Positions 10,895-22,379 of a stretch of DNA of 64,000 bases are shown here, piece after piece (the stretch's first letter is position 1; each line of letters opens with the position of its first letter). The stretch is taken from the NCBI GenBank assembly GCA_016872645.1, contig VGZH01000010.1, positions 1 through 64,000 on the forward strand. The letters run 5' to 3'. Under the pieces are notes generated by a model. That model made no database searches. It saw only the letters and a program-made list of their open reading frames with translations, and was not told the DNA's origin. Origin of the DNA: Planctomycetota bacterium. Its GTDB lineage: Bacteria > Planctomycetota > Planctomycetia > Planctomycetales > Planctomycetaceae. The position numbers and the translations under genes are program-made.

Positions 10895-12640
<1,746 letters not shown>

Positions 12641-12791
12641 GATGCGGTTTCCTTCTATGTGGTAGCGGCATTGTGGAGGCGAAGAGGGATTGAGAAAAGC
12701 CGGAATGATCAATCAAGAACTGAAAACGCTGAATGAAGATTACCCCGCCGGACCCCTGACCTCCGACGCCAGACCCCTTAGACTGCCCGTC

Positions 12792-15519: not shown

Positions 15520-16989
15520 CTACTCGGTCACAGCAGTCAGTTCCTTGCGAAAGTCGGCGGCCGGGATGTCTTGGCCGGTCGCGGACTTGAACTGCGTCGC
15601 GAGCTGCTCGGCATAGACATCGATCGGACTGACGGTCTTGGCTCCACGTTCGCGAGCTTCCTTCATCACCGGACTTTCCCCCGGCATCGTCGTGACGTCA
15701 ATCGCCATCATGCTGGCTCGCAAATAGCCAGGATTAAACTCCTCCTTCTTGCCGCCGAGCTGCAGGTTGGGATCAGCGAAGACCACGACATCGGTCAGCG
15801 TGTTGTAGAGGTTTTGGTACGGCACAAACCGTACTCCCATCTGAATGGCGAGAGCCTGAGCTTCTTTGTCGTTCGAGCTGGTGACGCTGACCAAGCCTTT
15901 GCGTTTGGCGATGCCGAAGATCATCGACTTGGCGACTCCACCGCTGCCGATGACCAGCAGATTGCGACGATCCAGCGGGCGAGTATCAACGCCTCCCTTG
16001 CCCAAGGCCGATTCCAAGGCTTTGACTGAGCTCCGCCACAGACTGTTGTACGCAGTCCAGACTTCGTTCTGCTTGATCATCAGGTCACCATGTTGCGACA
16101 TCTGCGTGGCCTCTTCCATTTTCTCCGCGAGCGGCAGCATGCGCTCGGCCGTCTGACCGGCGGCGACCAGCACGTTGACCTTCAGCGCATCAAGCATCTG
16201 TTTGAACTTGTCGAACTTCTCGGTCGCTACTGGCAGGCAGCGCATGTTGAGATTGATTTTGTCGAACATCTTGTTCATGGTCCGCACGGTCGCAGGTTCG
16301 GCGTCCCCCAAGCCTGCGATCGCGAGCAGTCGCGTTTGCGGATTGATATTTCGCCAGCCGTAGGTTTCGTCGAGCTCAAACACCGTGGCCTGACCCTCGA
16401 ACGCCTCCATTCCTTTCTCGAGTGCGGCGTAAATCCACGGCGAGCCGTACTTCCGGCCCAGCAGCGAAAACGTCAAGCCGGTGCGTCCCAGGCCCAAACC
16501 GACGACGGGAATGTCTCGCTTCTTCGACACGGCCGAGAGCAGTGGCCACGCGGCTTCCAGCGTGGGCGTCGGCCAAGTGAATTTCACGACGTCGGCGTTG
16601 ACCTTTTTAGCCTGCTCAAAAATCGAATCGATGTTCGTCGTGAGCGGCCGATCCAAACTGGTATAGCTGATGACTCGCTTGGTCTTGCCGAATCGCGGAA
16701 TTGACGTCGCGGTTTCCAAATCCAGTTCGATGTATGCCGGGCCGGCAACGATCGCCTGCCGCAGTAGCGTGATGCGCTCTTGCTCCGTTCCTTCCCAGGC
16801 TCCCCCTTGTTCTTTGTTACGGCAGGAAACCAGGATTGGCTTGGGAATGTCTTCCATCAGTTCGGCGACATTGGGCTCCTTGATGAGATGGTCGAGGCCC
16901 AATTCGACAATGTCACAACGCGCCGCCGCGTTCAGTAAATCGGCTTTGGCCAGCGTGCGGGATTCGGGAGAAACCGATATGCAAATCAT
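15520..16989 (-). CDS. AroD-AroE fusion (3-dehydroquinate dehydratase I / shikimate dehydrogenase) with degenerate active sites
   Basis: The 489-residue protein aligns by eye with a type I dehydroquinate dehydratase barrel (about residues 1-205) followed by a shikimate dehydrogenase (about 220-489). In the barrel the Schiff-base Lys is kept (V-V-K-F, K136), as are Arg in S-C-R-N-K-E-Q-G-G and Gln in E-G-Q. The E-x-R motif, however, reads E-L-G-L-D, the catalytic His position in V-I-S-Y-T is Thr110, and the S-R motif reads T-F-S. In the second half the Rossmann motif G-S-G-G-V-A-K-S (348-355) is intact. The NVTxPxK motif reads N-V-L-V-A-A-G-Q and the NTD motif reads N-S-L, so catalytic Lys and Asp are gone. 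It may be a pseudoenzyme or a new activity, and I do not assign shikimate-pathway function. Confidence 0.8.
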   Translation of the reverse strand: MICISVSPESRTLAKADLLNAAARCDIVELGLDHLIKEPNVAELMEDIPKPILVSCRNKEQGGAWEGTEQERITLLRQAIVAGPAYIELDLETATSIPRFGKTKRVISYTSLDRPLTTNIDSIFEQAKKVNADVVKFTWPTPTLEAAWPLLSAVSKKRDIPVVGLGLGRTGLTFSLLGRKYGSPWIYAALEKGMEAFEGQATVFELDETYGWRNINPQTRLLAIAGLGDAEPATVRTMNKMFDKINLNMRCLPVATEKFDKFKQMLDALKVNVLVAAGQTAERMLPLAEKMEEATQMSQHGDLMIKQNEVWTAYNSLWRSSVKALESALGKGGVDTRPLDRRNLLVIGSGGVAKSMIFGIAKRKGLVSVTSSNDKEAQALAIQMGVRFVPYQNLYNTLTDVVVFADPNLQLGGKKEEFNPGYLRASMMAIDVTTMPGESPVMKEARERGAKTVSPIDVYAEQLATQFKSATGQDIPAADFRKELTAVTE

Positions 16990-17102: not shown

Positions 17103-18278
17103 CTATTGGACTGCTCCCATAAATCTAATTTCGCAGTTTGGAAGCAGTTTTTTCAAGCTCGTGACCCCATTGATCGTGCAGCTTGTGCCGTTGATGTCCA
17201 ATCGTTGAAGGTCTTTGTTCTTGGCCAAGTTCTTTAGCGTGAAATCACCGACCATTGCCAAGTTTGTCAGAGAGAGTTCTTCCAGTCCTTTCGTGTTGGC
17301 CAGAACAATGAGCCCCTGGTCCGTGATTTGGTTGAAGCCAAGATTCAGTTTCTTCAGATGGTTGACTCCTTTGAGTGCCTGCAGAGCACGATCGGTGACC
17401 TCGGCTTGGCTGAGATCCAAATCTTCCAGCGTTTCGACGTTTCGCAGGAACTGCAGTCCCGCCAATCCGAACTGCGAATGTTGGGCATTCAAAACCCGCA
17501 AACCAGAATCTCCCTTTTTGCGTTTCAGAAACTTCAATCCGTCTCCGCGAATGGCCGTATGGCCAATCTTCAGAACCTCGAGTGACTTCATCTTTTCGAG
17601 AATTCTGAAGGCGTTGTCGGAAATTTGCGTGCCTGTGAGATTCAACGACTTGAGGTTTACCAAGTTCTCTAATGTGGCCAGCGCTGCGTCGCCAATGGTT
17701 GTTCGTTCCAGCGAGAGATCTTCAAGATTCTCTAAGTGTCCGAGCGTCGCCAGCATCGCCGGCGTGATGTTGATGTTGGTCAAATTCAAGCTGCGGAGCT
17801 TGGGCAACTCCTGAGTCACGGCGAAACCAACTTCGGTGATGCGAGTGCTGGTGAAGTTGATGGTCTCCAGGTTTTGCAGCTTGGCGAGATTCTTGATCCC
17901 TTCATCCGTGACTGGCGAAGAGTTCAAGTCCATGTTGTTGATGGACTCCGTGCCAGAGGACAAGTTGCAAACGCGCAGCAGATCATTGTCTCTCCGCTCC
18001 GTGGAGGATGTGTTGAGGAACTTGGCGATGGCCGCTTGCGGGTCTTCGAGGTTTGCTGCTGGTGTCGATTGATCGGGGACCGTTGGAGTGACGGTGTTGG
18101 CTTTCGGAGAGGCCTGCAGCGTGACCGCTGGATCGTTTAGTGGCGGCGGCGGTGCCGGTGTAGATGAAACTTCTTCGCAGCCCAGGCACACTACGATCAG
18201 CAACGCTCCAAGCCGGATCGACAGGAGATCTTGGACCAGTCCTGCCCGCAACAATTCAGTGGATGATATCTGAGGCAT
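17103..18278 (-). CDS. Exported leucine-rich-repeat protein, possible lipoprotein
   Basis: I start this 391-residue protein at ATG 18278, where AAGGAG lies 6 bases upstream; the open frame extends much further upstream only by chance. A hydrophobic segment ending V-V-C-L-G-C-E-E (about residues 23-34) could be a lipoprotein signal, though the lipobox is imperfect. A Pro/Ser/Thr-rich linker follows. From about residue 125 there are some ten 23-25-residue leucine-rich repeats of the bacterial type (L-x-x-L-x-x-L-x-L-x-x-T-x-I-x-D-x-x-L). Such exported LRR proteins are abundant in planctomycetes and are thought to mediate protein contacts. No partner can be named. Confidence 0.85.
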   Translation of the reverse strand: MPQISSTELLRAGLVQDLLSIRLGALLIVVCLGCEEVSSTPAPPPPLNDPAVTLQASPKANTVTPTVPDQSTPAANLEDPQAAIAKFLNTSSTERRDNDLLRVCNLSSGTESINNMDLNSSPVTDEGIKNLAKLQNLETINFTSTRITEVGFAVTQELPKLRSLNLTNINITPAMLATLGHLENLEDLSLERTTIGDAALATLENLVNLKSLNLTGTQISDNAFRILEKMKSLEVLKIGHTAIRGDGLKFLKRKKGDSGLRVLNAQHSQFGLAGLQFLRNVETLEDLDLSQAEVTDRALQALKGVNHLKKLNLGFNQITDQGLIVLANTKGLEELSLTNLAMVGDFTLKNLAKNKDLQRLDINGTSCTINGVTSLKKLLPNCEIRFMGAVQ

Positions 18279-18564
18279 GATCATCTCCTTGCAAATGACC
18301 AGCGTGACGAGATGCAAGCCGAGTGTAACGGAACTAGAGAATGTTTCAGACCACGTGACGCTCGACGGGACAATTTGATCGCAGTCAGCCACAAACCGGA
18401 ACTCAAGAGCGAGCGTGATTCCGGTTGAAACTCGCATGGTTTGGCTGGCCGACATTTGCGAGTCGACAGCGTTTCCGAGTCGCGAGGCGGAGCATATCAT
18501 CCGCCTTTGCGATGCGTCAGTCGCCGCGCGGGTGACGACTTGGATTTGCGGAGATTTCACGGAA

Positions 18565-19602
18565 ATGCACGATGCGATTCGCGACGCTCTGAACGCCGTC
18601 TTTGAGCGGCACGATGTCCCCGAGACGGTCTGCCAGTCTGCCGTCGCCGCGATCATGGACGGCCAGTGCGATGAAGCGTCGATCGCCGCCTTCCTGACAG
18701 CTTTGCGAGTCAAAGGAGAGGCGGTCGATGAGATTGTCGGGGCCGCTCGCGCGATGATCGAACGGGCTGAACGAGTGCCGACACACCGCACCGGATTGCT
18801 CGACACTTGTGGCACCGGCGGCGACGAACTCCATACCTTCAATATCAGCACGGCAACCGCGTTCGTCGCGGCGGCCTGCGGAGTTCCTGTTGCCAAACAC
18901 GGCAACCGTGGAGTATCGAGCAGTTCTGGTTCCGCCGACGTGCTCGAAGCCTTGGGGGTTCACACGCAACTGACGCCGGCCCAAGTCGGCCGCTGCCTCG
19001 ATGAAATCGGTATCGGTTTTTGTTTCGCTCCCGTCTTCCACGGCGCGATGCGACACGCGGCTCCAGTTCGCAAGGCTCTGAAATTTCGGACGCTGTTCAA
19101 TTTTGTCGGCCCGCTGACTAACCCCGCCGGTGCTGACTTCCAATTACTTGGGGCCTCGCGCATCGCAACCGCCGAGAAGTTGGCGAACGCCGCCTTGCGA
19201 CTCGGCCGAGGTCGCACATTGGTTGTCTGCGGCAACGATCAGCTGGACGAGGTCAGTCTGTGGGGGTCGACAACCGTCTTCGAAGCCGCGGCCGGTTTCG
19301 TCCAACGACACACTTGGTCCGCCGCGACCTTCGGCCTCGCCGAATGCGATGTCGCCGACCTGCGAGTCAGGTCACCCGCCGAAAGTGCCGACCGCATTCG
19401 AGCTGTCTTCAGCGGCGAACGTTCCGCCGCTCGCGACATCATCATCGCCAATGCCGCCGCCGCGCTCATCGCCGCCAAAGCAGAAATCGATCCCGTGCTC
19501 GCGGCGAATCATGCGGCCTGTGTGCTCGACTCCGGTAGGACCGCGGAGCTGCTGGCTCGATTCGTCGAGCAGACACGAGCCTTCGCCGGCCAAACGCCGT
19601 AG
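18565..19602 (+). CDS. trpD: Anthranilate phosphoribosyltransferase
   Basis: TrpD transfers the phosphoribosyl group of PRPP to anthranilate in tryptophan synthesis in the cytoplasm. The product, 345 residues from ATG 18565, has the expected family length. It shows the PRPP-binding C-G-T-G-G-D (near residue 82), N-I-S-T-A-T-A-F, the K-H-G-N-R motif (near 111) and G-S-A-D-V-L-E-A-L-G. The open frame continues 50 codons upstream to a GTG, but that extension is not family-like. No other trp gene is adjacent; the preceding LRR gene is divergent. Confidence 0.93.
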   Translation: MHDAIRDALNAVFERHDVPETVCQSAVAAIMDGQCDEASIAAFLTALRVKGEAVDEIVGAARAMIERAERVPTHRTGLLDTCGTGGDELHTFNISTATAFVAAACGVPVAKHGNRGVSSSSGSADVLEALGVHTQLTPAQVGRCLDEIGIGFCFAPVFHGAMRHAAPVRKALKFRTLFNFVGPLTNPAGADFQLLGASRIATAEKLANAALRLGRGRTLVVCGNDQLDEVSLWGSTTVFEAAAGFVQRHTWSAATFGLAECDVADLRVRSPAESADRIRAVFSGERSAARDIIIANAAAALIAAKAEIDPVLAANHAACVLDSGRTAELLARFVEQTRAFAGQTP

Positions 19603-19630: not shown

Positions 19631-20884
19631 TCACGGCTTCGTCGCTTCGTCCACCAGCACGCGCAGGAACGGTTCGACATCGGTGACGAGACCGATCGAC
19701 TGAAACGTTCCGCGATCGGCGAGCTTGGTCACGGTCGCCGGGTTGATGTCGACGCAGACGGTCTTCACCGACGCCGGCAGCAAATTGCCCACCGCGATCG
19801 AATGCAGCGTCGTCGCGATCATCAGGCAGAAGGTGATCCCCTCGCCGTGGATCAGTTCGCGCATCGCCGTTTGAGCGACGAGGCTGTCACTGATGACATC
19901 CGGCAGAGGCCCATCGTCGCGGATGCTGCCGGCCAGCACGAAGGGAACGTCGTGCTTTACACACTCGAACATGATGCCGTCAGTGAGCACGCCCGATTCC
20001 ACCGCGCATTGAATGCTCCCCATCCGGCGGATGCGGTTGATCGAACGAAGATGATGCTCGTGTCCCTCGGCCGTTCCGCCGCCGCTCTTCATCGAGATGC
20101 CCAGGCTCGTGCCGAAGAACGATTGCTCGATGTCATGCGTCGCGAGCGCGTTTCCTGCAAACAGCAGATGCACATAACCCTCGCGAATTAGCCGGCTGAG
20201 ATGCTCGCGACTTCCGGTATGCACGACCGCCGGCCCGGCCACGACGAGAATCTTGCCGTCGCCTTGCTTAGCTCGACGCATCTCAGCGGCGATCTCGCGG
20301 ACGGTCACGTTCTTCGGCTTCTCACTGCTGACGGTGCTCTGCATGAATCCAAACACGCCGAGCTTGTCGCGATCGCGTCCGTGCGGCAGGACTCGTGTCC
20401 CGTGATGTCCTACGACAATCAAATCGCCCTTGCGGACGTCGGCCATCGGGAGCGTGGCGACTTTGTTTCCGGACGACACCACCACACCGCAATCCATCTC
20501 CGGCCGCTCGACCCGATACCACACGCTACCGATACGAACCTGCATTTCCTGATTTGTTGAGCAAAAGAAGCCTTCTGGAAACGCACCGTCCATGTCGGCA
20601 GGCACAAGCTGCGCGTCCTGCTGATGCACTCGCACGGCCCCGTGTCGCCCGATATCTCGCACGATCTTTTCGAGCTGTTCAGCCGAGTCCGCAGTGACCA
20701 GCAACCGCGCCGCGCTGGGGTCCTGCCGCCGTTGACCAACTGAGATCTCCAGAATCTCGAACCGTCCACCCTGGGACATGATTTCGTCGAGCACCTTCGG
20801 CAGCAACAAACTGTCGATGATGTGCCCGGCGAGTTCGACGTCATCCGTGAATGGCTGAGGAATCATGCGACGTTCACTAGTCAT
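19631..20884 (-). CDS. TIGR00300 (LOR/SDH-type) protein, possible ornithine cyclodeaminase
   Basis: The 417-residue protein starts at ATG 20884, with AAGGGG 6 bases upstream. The N-terminal part, with H-I-I-D-S-L-L-L-P-K-V-L-D and F-E-I-L-E-I-S-V-G, and the Rossmann-like V-V-A-G-P-A-V-V-H-T-G region identify the LOR/SDH domain family TIGR00300. Members include archaeal-type ornithine cyclodeaminase (ornithine to proline) and the C-terminal half of cyanobacterial ArgZ/AgrE. The amidinotransferase-like domain of ArgZ is absent here. It is divergent from the LarA-like gene. The exact reaction is inferred from family only. Confidence 0.75.
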   Translation of the reverse strand: MTSERRMIPQPFTDDVELAGHIIDSLLLPKVLDEIMSQGGRFEILEISVGQRRQDPSAARLLVTADSAEQLEKIVRDIGRHGAVRVHQQDAQLVPADMDGAFPEGFFCSTNQEMQVRIGSVWYRVERPEMDCGVVVSSGNKVATLPMADVRKGDLIVVGHHGTRVLPHGRDRDKLGVFGFMQSTVSSEKPKNVTVREIAAEMRRAKQGDGKILVVAGPAVVHTGSREHLSRLIREGYVHLLFAGNALATHDIEQSFFGTSLGISMKSGGGTAEGHEHHLRSINRIRRMGSIQCAVESGVLTDGIMFECVKHDVPFVLAGSIRDDGPLPDVISDSLVAQTAMRELIHGEGITFCLMIATTLHSIAVGNLLPASVKTVCVDINPATVTKLADRGTFQSIGLVTDVEPFLRVLVDEATKP

Positions 20885-20974
20885 CGTGAGCCCCTTCAAT
20901 TGGCGGTGAACCGGTGTCTGGCCGCGCGGGATCCTATATCCTTCGCCTTAATCTGTCCCGGCAACTTTTAAAGC

Positions 20975-21083: not shown

Positions 21084-21143
21084 TTTCCGTTTTTCTTGCG
21101 ACTCCCGCGACTTCGCGTGAGCGCACTTTTCAGGGCTCCGTCC

Positions 21144-22379
21144 ATGCACATTCTGTCTGAATCGCAAGTCCGCGAGTGGTTTGCTTGCCAGGTTCCCGCC
21201 AACGAATTCGCCAACCAGCGAGTGCTCGTCATTGTCCCCGACTCGACCCGCACGGCCCCACTGCCACTGCTGTTCAGCGCGTTGCATGACCGAATCAGTG
21301 CCGCCGTCAAGCAAGTGGACGTACTGGTCGCTCTTGGCACGCATCCGCCGATGCCGGAGGCGGCGATTGCCAAGATGCTCGGCATGAACGACGCCGATCG
21401 AGCGGCCGGCGGAAAGTACTCCACCGTCGGGCTGTTCAATCACGAGTGGGACAACCCCGCGCGGCTGATGACAATCGGTACTCTTACGCGATCCGACACG
21501 GAACAAATCACCGATGGCCGACTCTCGCTCGATGTGCCAGTGCAGATCAATTCGCGGATTGCGGATTACGACACGTTGCTGGTGCTCGGTCCGGTATTTC
21601 CGCATGAAGTCGTCGGGTTCAGCGGCGGCAACAAGTATTTCTTTCCCGGTATCTCCGGGCCGGAATTGCTCAACTTCTTTCATTGGTTGGGAGCACTCAT
21701 CACGAATGTTGGCATCATCGGAGTGAAGGGGACGCCCGTGCGAGCCGTCGTCGATCGTGCTGCCATGTTGATCCCGAACACTCGCCGAGCGATCACATTC
21801 GTCGTCGCCAGCGACGGCAATTTGCACGGCTTGTTCTTCGGCACGCCGGAGTCCGCGTGGGACGGAGCCGCCGACTTGTCGAGCCAGGTTCACATCAAAT
21901 GGATGGACCGGCCGTTCCAAACAGTGCTGAGCTGTGCTCCGCCGATGTACGACGAGCTGTGGGTTGCCGGCAAGTGCATGTACAAGCTCGAACCGGTCGT
22001 GGCCGACGGCGGCGAGCTGATCATCTTCGCCCCGCACCTCAGCGAGATTTCGGTGACTCACGGCCGGCTGATCGAAGAGGTCGGGTATCACGTCCGCGAC
22101 TACTTCACAAAGCAATGGGATCGCTTTAAGCAATACCCGTGGGGAGTCCTTGCCCACAGCACGCACGTCCGCGGCACCGGCACCTTCGAGAACGGCGTTG
22201 AGACACCGCGAGTCCGTGTCACCCTCGCATCACAAATTCCTCCCGACGTCTGCGCTCGTATCAACCTCGGCTACCGCGACCCCGCCACGATCAACGTCGA
22301 ATCCTTTGCCAGTCGGGAATCTGAAGGAGTTCTGTTGGTCCGCAAGGCAGGCGAGTATCTCTACCGATTGAAAGACTGA
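21144..22379 (+). CDS. LarA-like protein (lactate racemase-type, nickel-pincer cofactor family)
   Basis: The 411-residue product starts at ATG 21144. LarA enzymes use a nickel-pincer nucleotide covalently bound to Lys to racemise or epimerise 2-hydroxyacids in the cytoplasm. Family landmarks present are D-S-T-R-T-A-P (N-terminal nucleotide-binding site), A-L-G-T-H-P-P-M, F-P-H-E-V-V-G-F-S-G-G-N-K-Y-F-F-P-G (which supplies the His ligand and cofactor-binding Lys) and F-F-H-W-L. The key His and Lys residues are therefore conserved. A LarB gene needed for cofactor synthesis lies 18.5 kb away (40843-41532). The substrate is unknown; many LarA homologs are not lactate racemases. Confidence 0.82.
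   Translation: MHILSESQVREWFACQVPANEFANQRVLVIVPDSTRTAPLPLLFSALHDRISAAVKQVDVLVALGTHPPMPEAAIAKMLGMNDADRAAGGKYSTVGLFNHEWDNPARLMTIGTLTRSDTEQITDGRLSLDVPVQINSRIADYDTLLVLGPVFPHEVVGFSGGNKYFFPGISGPELLNFFHWLGALITNVGIIGVKGTPVRAVVDRAAMLIPNTRRAITFVVASDGNLHGLFFGTPESAWDGAADLSSQVHIKWMDRPFQTVLSCAPPMYDELWVAGKCMYKLEPVVADGGELIIFAPHLSEISVTHGRLIEEVGYHVRDYFTKQWDRFKQYPWGVLAHSTHVRGTGTFENGVETPRVRVTLASQIPPDVCARINLGYRDPATINVESFASRESEGVLLVRKAGEYLYRLKD

Follow-up and report, generated by a model that had tools for sequence, protein, structure and literature searches.

Type I dehydroquinases (AroD) act through an imine between the substrate and Lys170, the formation and hydrolysis of which are aided by His143 (PMC9902378), and their catalytic set is described as E86/H143/K170 (PMC11796326, PMC9902378). 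As described in PMC9074039, the H143Q mutant of E. coli AroD loses all activity, and a study of the H143A mutant cited there bears the title 'Stalled catalysis in a histidine to alanine mutant'. In fungi, duplicated modules of the AROM protein serve as the regulators QutR, GaaX and TanX, for which the working hypothesis set out in PMC10512348 is that they are inactive and recognise an inducer. As described in PMC12610400, deletion of the repressor gene in A. niger derepresses the quinate genes.

Here we describe a bacterial AroD-AroE fusion with an altered active site, encoded in a 64,000-nucleotide stretch of Planctomycetota DNA (hereinafter the window). The relevant features are:

15520..16989, minus strand: degenerate AroD-AroE fusion paralogue of 489 aa (ORF, Pfam, phmmer, fold match)
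16354..16989, minus strand: type I dehydroquinase-like barrel, residues 1-212, conserved with an altered active site, Lys136 kept (Pfam PF01487 131 bits, residue tables, conservation)
15523..16353, minus strand: shikimate-dehydrogenase-like half, residues 213-489, of drifted sequence and without the catalytic Lys and Asp (fold match, residue tables, conservation)
16582..16584, minus strand: Lys136 codon, equivalent of the Schiff-base Lys170 (from residue number)
16660..16662, minus strand: Thr110 codon, at the catalytic His143 position (from residue number)

The reading frame is intact, running from an ATG start through 489 codons to a stop, in agreement with the first-pass annotation, which had called the gene intact and long. 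Homology of the barrel to the type I dehydroquinases is clear, with the Pfam DHquinase_I profile matching residues 3-210 at 131 bits against a cut-off of 22.2; the AroE half scores under its own Pfam cut-off (15.2 vs 24.3 bits). A phmmer search aligned residues 24-476 with the Arabidopsis DHQ-SDH fusion (E 1.2e-32), and that enzyme (2O7S) is likewise the best fold match of an AlphaFold2 model built from 42 aligned relatives (mean pLDDT 93), with Z 38.1 over 467 residues, 2.3 A and 23% identity. The match spans model residues 1-489, a barrel followed by an AroE fold in a single chain, and judged by this predicted fold the protein is an AroD-AroE fusion. On NCBIfam NF006802 it falls far below the cut-off (72.6 vs 598 bits); the canonical AroDE of the same genome, at 177.6 bits, is also under that cut-off and passes only TIGR00507 (aroE), with 219.3 vs 200.2 bits.

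Residue equivalences were taken from an alignment to 14 canonical planctomycete copies; the E. coli numbers other than E86, H143 and K170 are those we take to apply, and the placement of the barrel residues discussed here in the pocket is predicted from homology and this numbering. The barrel keeps E46 (E29), R82 (R57), K170 (K136) and Q236 (Q200), and has changed R48 to G31, E86 to Q61, H143 to T110 and R213 to S175, the E86 position being Gln throughout the window's genus. Thus, only one of the three residues of the E86-H143-K170 set of working dehydroquinases survives (Q61, T110, K136). In the AroE half S14, S16, K65, N86 and D102 correspond to P232, T234, A281, D302 and L317, whereby both the Lys65 and the Asp102 of working shikimate dehydrogenases are gone, and the Rossmann GxGG is present (G348, G350, G351). 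The first-pass annotation had reported the Schiff-base Lys at K136, E-L-G in place of the E-x-R motif, Thr110 at the catalytic His position, replacement of the Arg of the S-R motif, and, in the dehydrogenase part, a retained Rossmann motif with the NVTxPxK and NTD motifs replaced, all of which the alignment bears out. Its more general statement, that most catalytic residues are lacking in both domains, holds for the AroE half and for the catalytic triad, two of whose three members are lost, but not for the barrel pocket as a whole, where E46, R82 and Q236 are kept. Neither the 2O7S fold alignment nor the 14-copy alignment places a canonical His, Lys or Asp elsewhere in the sequence.

The substitutions are themselves conserved among 80 named loci. 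These are the best of 150 found, hence the nearer relatives, and partly lie on the same contigs as the 37-genome family set considered below. Across these best 80 of 150, the equivalents of K170, E46, R82 and Q236 are each present in 80/80, and an Asp of the canonical barrel is replaced by Glu88 in 80/80. The catalytic His is found in none of the same 80, its position being occupied by Thr (65), Ala (11), Ser (2), Val (1) or Asn (1), with the 11 Ala copies constituting one sublineage; the R213 position is Ser in 79 and Thr in one, and the R48 position is Cys (54), Gly (11), Arg (11), Ala (3) or Ser (1). In the AroE halves of these best 80 of 150 loci, Lys65 and Asp102 are each found in 0/80, and the second and third Gly of the GxGG each in 62/80. 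Of 20 sequences fetched from the families f3 and f97, one is canonical; the 19 degenerate copies all have Arg at the R48 position, Thr (18) or Val (1) at the His position, Ser (10), Thr (4), Ala (4) or Pro (1) at the R213 position, and Lys (18) or Arg (1) at the Lys position, the Arg being that of relative G424. As the f3/f97 copies still hold Arg48, the His and Arg213 were lost early and Arg48 later, in the window's family. Among the 40 degenerate rows of the tree described next, the Lys is present in 40/40 and the His position is Thr in 37/40, the exceptions being G018 (His), G029 (Arg) and one of the G036 copies (Asn).

A tree of 54 proteins splits the 40 degenerate from the 14 canonical rows with support of 100/100. 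A quick, bootstrap-free tree rooted on 9 sequences from other classes recovers the degenerate copies as a clade (SH-aLRT 100) with a stem of 0.99 changes per column, and places the class's canonical AroDEs (94) as its sister group. The simplest history suggested by these sequences would be that the gene was duplicated once, close to the base of the class, then changed in a burst and was lost from several families. The degenerate copy is near-universal in the window's family, being present in 35/37 genomes (G027 and G032 are without it), in 17/17 family genomes of a second set and, in a wider search, in 82 family genomes, with at least two lacking a match. As two family genomes lack it in one search and at least two in another, it is not essential everywhere. 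Beyond the family, 25 genomes were found among the matches listed, of which G041 and G560 are canonical by their residues, leaving 23 with a degenerate copy (18 in f3, four in f97 and one in f4). Organisms represented in the best 80 of 150 loci are, among others, Thalassoglobus neptunius, Gimesia, Schlesneria and Planctomicrobium. Two oddities were also observed: in genome G532, of the family, the match to the degenerate copy covers only 292 residues and is interrupted by a TGA (C1:3296967-3297845), and G036 has a second, diverged degenerate copy (L039 5128-6639, minus strand) with an insert in the AroE half that carries a C-x-x-C pair (CPHC).

The shikimate pathway of the window's genome is not dependent on this copy: there is a canonical AroDE at C51:34620-36080, 27% identical to the window protein and with the motifs EYRLD, SYHNF, IIKLA, VTIPHK and NTD, and both AroB and AroC are present. 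A search of the genome for another dehydroquinase, type II included, found none besides this canonical AroDE. Given the presence of the latter, and with no other dehydroquinase found, it is the degenerate copy that was free to change. The degenerate gene (contig C10) is not linked to the canonical one (contig C51), and a canonical-type match occurs in 37/37 family genomes. The genome further codes for a stand-alone AroE-like protein on contig C3 (L034 934-1884, minus strand; TIGR00507, 219 bits), adjoining an ORF that resembles a sugar-binding protein; it may be a catabolic quinate/shikimate-type dehydrogenase.

The degenerate gene is under strong purifying selection. For 66 pairs among 12 genomes of the genus, NG86 gives median dN/dS values of 0.051 (whole gene), 0.029 (barrel, 58/66 pairs usable) and 0.069 (AroE half), as against 0.079, 0.075 and 0.085, respectively, for the canonical AroDE, all with a rough dS since synonymous differences reach about 0.5 per site; within the genus, then, the barrel dN/dS is lower in the degenerate than in the canonical copy. 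In a matched comparison of 21 genomes having both copies (210 pairs), the barrels come out roughly as a draw, with mean pairwise identities of 60.7% (degenerate) vs 63.2% (canonical) and the degenerate barrel more alike in 100/210 pairs. The AroE halves differ sharply, with 34.1% vs 53.9% mean identity and the degenerate copy lower in 210/210 pairs. Counted as invariant columns in the same 21 genomes, degenerate vs canonical, the barrel has 35 vs 45 and the AroE half 8 vs 48. An unmatched column count (76 vs 61) had made the degenerate barrel seem more conserved than the canonical one; the matched parity overturns this, the earlier count having overstated the degenerate barrel because its canonical rows spanned more families. 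By these sequence comparisons, the barrel is the part that the cell is keeping, with the AroE half having drifted. Taken together, strong purifying selection, family-wide retention and conserved substitutions show that the gene is kept for something besides the two textbook reactions, which upholds the first-pass suggestion of another reaction or a non-catalytic role.

One relative offers a functional context. In genome G039 a single 936-aa ORF (L044 5045-7852, minus strand) combines an N-terminal Ser/Thr kinase with a C-terminal degenerate AroDE (Pfam Pkinase 5.8e-49, DHquinase_I 1.4e-25), the kinase part being of the Hanks type with HRDLKPSN and APEQ motifs recognised by eye. Ser/Thr kinases of this type are often fused to sensor domains. 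This fusion, a single case, is what is expected if the AroDE module binds something and reports it; it is one of three degenerate relatives in that genome and sits on a long branch in the tree. By eye, no further kinase fusion was seen in 13 long-open-frame loci (selected from more) or in seven further loci; when 396 genomes of the class were searched using the fused domain, no other frame above 623 aa was among the matches listed, and no second kinase-AroDE fusion was among the frames listed in the family and class genome searches. Three long-open-frame loci from other planctomycete genomes (L237, L239 and L247) have an AroDE with a C-terminal shikimate-kinase-like part, its P-loop motif recognised by eye, and the rest resemble spurious open frames.

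The survey of gene neighborhoods covered 103 loci, one of them a slice of the window, with some contigs entering twice and inflating the counts. Of 26 neighbor clusters found in at least 8 of the 103 loci the majority are other-frame ORFs of the gene itself, and the real neighbors are a protein of about 814 aa encoded upstream (20 loci), trpD (15) and the window's ThDP decarboxylase (8). A conserved operon was considered and rejected, as no neighbor is family-wide among the 103 loci; nor does a conserved regulator adjoin the gene family-wide in them. In the 23 loci of other families no neighbor occurs in more than four, except ORFs overlapping the gene. With no conserved neighbor, regulator or operon over the family, no partner is indicated. 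In genomes of the genus the degenerate copy has trpD and an indolepyruvate-decarboxylase-like gene close by, a hint, no more, toward aromatic metabolism. In the window, these are trpD (anthranilate phosphoribosyltransferase; 18415-19602, plus strand; TIGR01245, 377 bits) and a ThDP enzyme (10895-12712, minus strand) nearest to the indolepyruvate/phenylpyruvate decarboxylases of TIGR03394 at 427.5 bits, below the cut-off of 554.5. The longest ORF of an LRR protein (17103-18905, minus strand) overlaps the trpD start, and the LRR gene therefore probably starts further in. Beyond trpD are a nickel-pincer-nucleotide-dependent ornithine cyclodeaminase (19631-20899, minus strand; TIGR00300, 526.6 vs 410.8 bits) and a LarA-like protein (21096-22379, plus strand) whose best NCBIfam match is a putative hexonate epimerase (165 vs 500 bits). 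These two divergent neighbors place members of two NPN-using families side by side.

We observe a separate clade under purifying selection, in which the residues for both reactions are absent and a specific altered pocket surrounds a nearly invariant Lys. These features are best explained if the protein arose through an ancient duplication of the planctomycete AroDE fusion and was then neofunctionalised, and the window protein is very probably a retained paralogue that performs neither textbook reaction. As to what it does instead, we give a probability of roughly 0.45 to its being a pseudoenzyme whose barrel binds a carbonyl metabolite as a sensor. Because the barrel keeps the Lys and loses the His, we infer that it would bind carbonyls without turnover: a small carbonyl compound, of the shikimate/quinate type or a relative, would still be bound, probably held as an imine on Lys136, and with the His that forms and hydrolyses the imine gone, binding would act as a signal instead of leading to a reaction. 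The AroE half, being inert, might be a scaffold or an output surface, and the metabolite would be reported to a partner, as QutR/GaaX would. A carboxylate-bearing ligand of the shikimate type cannot be taken for granted, given the loss of Arg213 and, in most copies, of Arg48. A bolder and less likely version is a bacterial family of covalent metabolite sensors that evolved independently of the fungal repressors: the barrel, frozen at the Schiff-base stage by the His loss, would read a carbonyl intermediate, as a free protein in most family genomes and, in at least one relative, joined to a Ser/Thr kinase as its sensor half. Several observations speak against a sensor: in the family lineage of G018 the position is His; the Lys is replaced by Arg in relative G424; only one kinase fusion was seen, and its branch is long; and so conserved a pocket would also fit a new enzyme.

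That last alternative is the main rival: like a class I aldolase, the barrel would act on another keto compound by Schiff-base catalysis, at a site made up of Thr110, Glu88, Glu29 and Lys136, and the AroE half would be only structural. It draws on the invariance of Lys136, Glu29, Arg57, Glu88 and Gln200 (80/80 of the best 80 of 150 loci), on replacements that are mostly conserved in those loci (position 110 Thr in 65/80, position 175 Ser in 79/80), and on a barrel constraint close to that of the working enzyme, with the dN/dS of 0.029. However, position 110 varies across lineages between Thr, Ala, Ser, Val, Asn and Arg, which would be unusual for a residue that takes part in catalysis; the window's own genus has Gln instead of the acid at position 86; there is no metabolic operon; and one relative is fused to a kinase. 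Improbable, too, is a role as scaffold or activator, in which the protein would bind no ligand itself but would pair with the canonical AroDE, or with another enzyme of the shikimate pathway, and modulate its partner: a canonical-type copy to pair with exists in 37/37 family genomes and fold and length are those of the canonical paralogue, but the invariant positions crowd in the barrel (35 vs 8 in the AroE half) and include pocket residues, which is more than a scaffold needs, and the two genes are unlinked.

Residual activity as a weak dehydroquinase or shikimate dehydrogenase would accord with the kept Lys170, Glu46, Arg82 and Gln236 equivalents; we nevertheless hold it to be very improbable, as E. 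coli AroD is described as inactive once His143 is changed (PMC9074039), the AroE Lys65 and Asp102 are each retained in 0/80 of the best 80 of 150 loci, and the genome has a canonical copy. A decaying relic, which the 292-residue G532 match with its internal TGA might suggest, is the least credible reading and already contradicted by the whole-gene dN/dS of 0.051 and by the intact gene in nearly all genomes.

If the preferred reading of a carbonyl-binding sensor is true, bacteria and fungi would each have made a signal receptor from a duplicate of the same two shikimate enzymes, and the AroD barrel would be a recurrent template for metabolite sensing. The natural series of His to Thr, Ala, Ser and Asn lends itself to studying the change from enzyme to receptor. 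Annotation by fold or best match would name these proteins dehydroquinase/shikimate dehydrogenase, though neither reaction is expected of them, and the clade represents a tightly conserved gene without an assigned role in a phylum whose regulation is little known. A literature search covering few subscription journals turned up, among the papers listed, none that we recognised as describing such a planctomycete AroDE paralogue.

Among known systems, the plant DHQ-SDH (2GPT/2O7S; NF006802) has the same domain order, length and fold as the window protein, in which, by comparison, the triad is reduced to the Lys and the AroE Lys65 and Asp102 are gone. The next sequence match is the shikimate dehydrogenase-like HI0607 (1NPY), which aligns with the AroE half only (E 2e-12) and, unlike the window protein, is stand-alone and without a barrel. 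HI0607 is a working, though distinct, shikimate dehydrogenase. In the dehydroquinase domain of Candida albicans Aro1, the catalytic His is likewise replaced and the dehydroquinase activity lost, as described in PMC9074039, where the Lys is also reported as changed in three of seven Candida species examined. That inactive domain lies within a working multi-enzyme, whereas the planctomycete copy is a separate paralogue that keeps its Lys and whose AroE half is also without catalytic residues. As presented in PMC10512348, QutR/QA-1S, GaaX and TanX are likewise duplicated, inactive dehydroquinase and shikimate dehydrogenase modules (AROM-type) standing beside a working enzyme. However, the fungal repressors derive also from the shikimate-kinase domain, whereas the window ORF begins directly with the barrel, matched from residue 3, and their activator gene adjoins them, whereas the planctomycete gene is without a conserved regulator neighbor. 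Moreover, the planctomycete protein comes from a duplication of a bacterial AroDE, unlike the AROM-derived repressors. Hence, it is not a member of the fungal group and would, at most, work like QutR/GaaX, as an analogue of these regulators.
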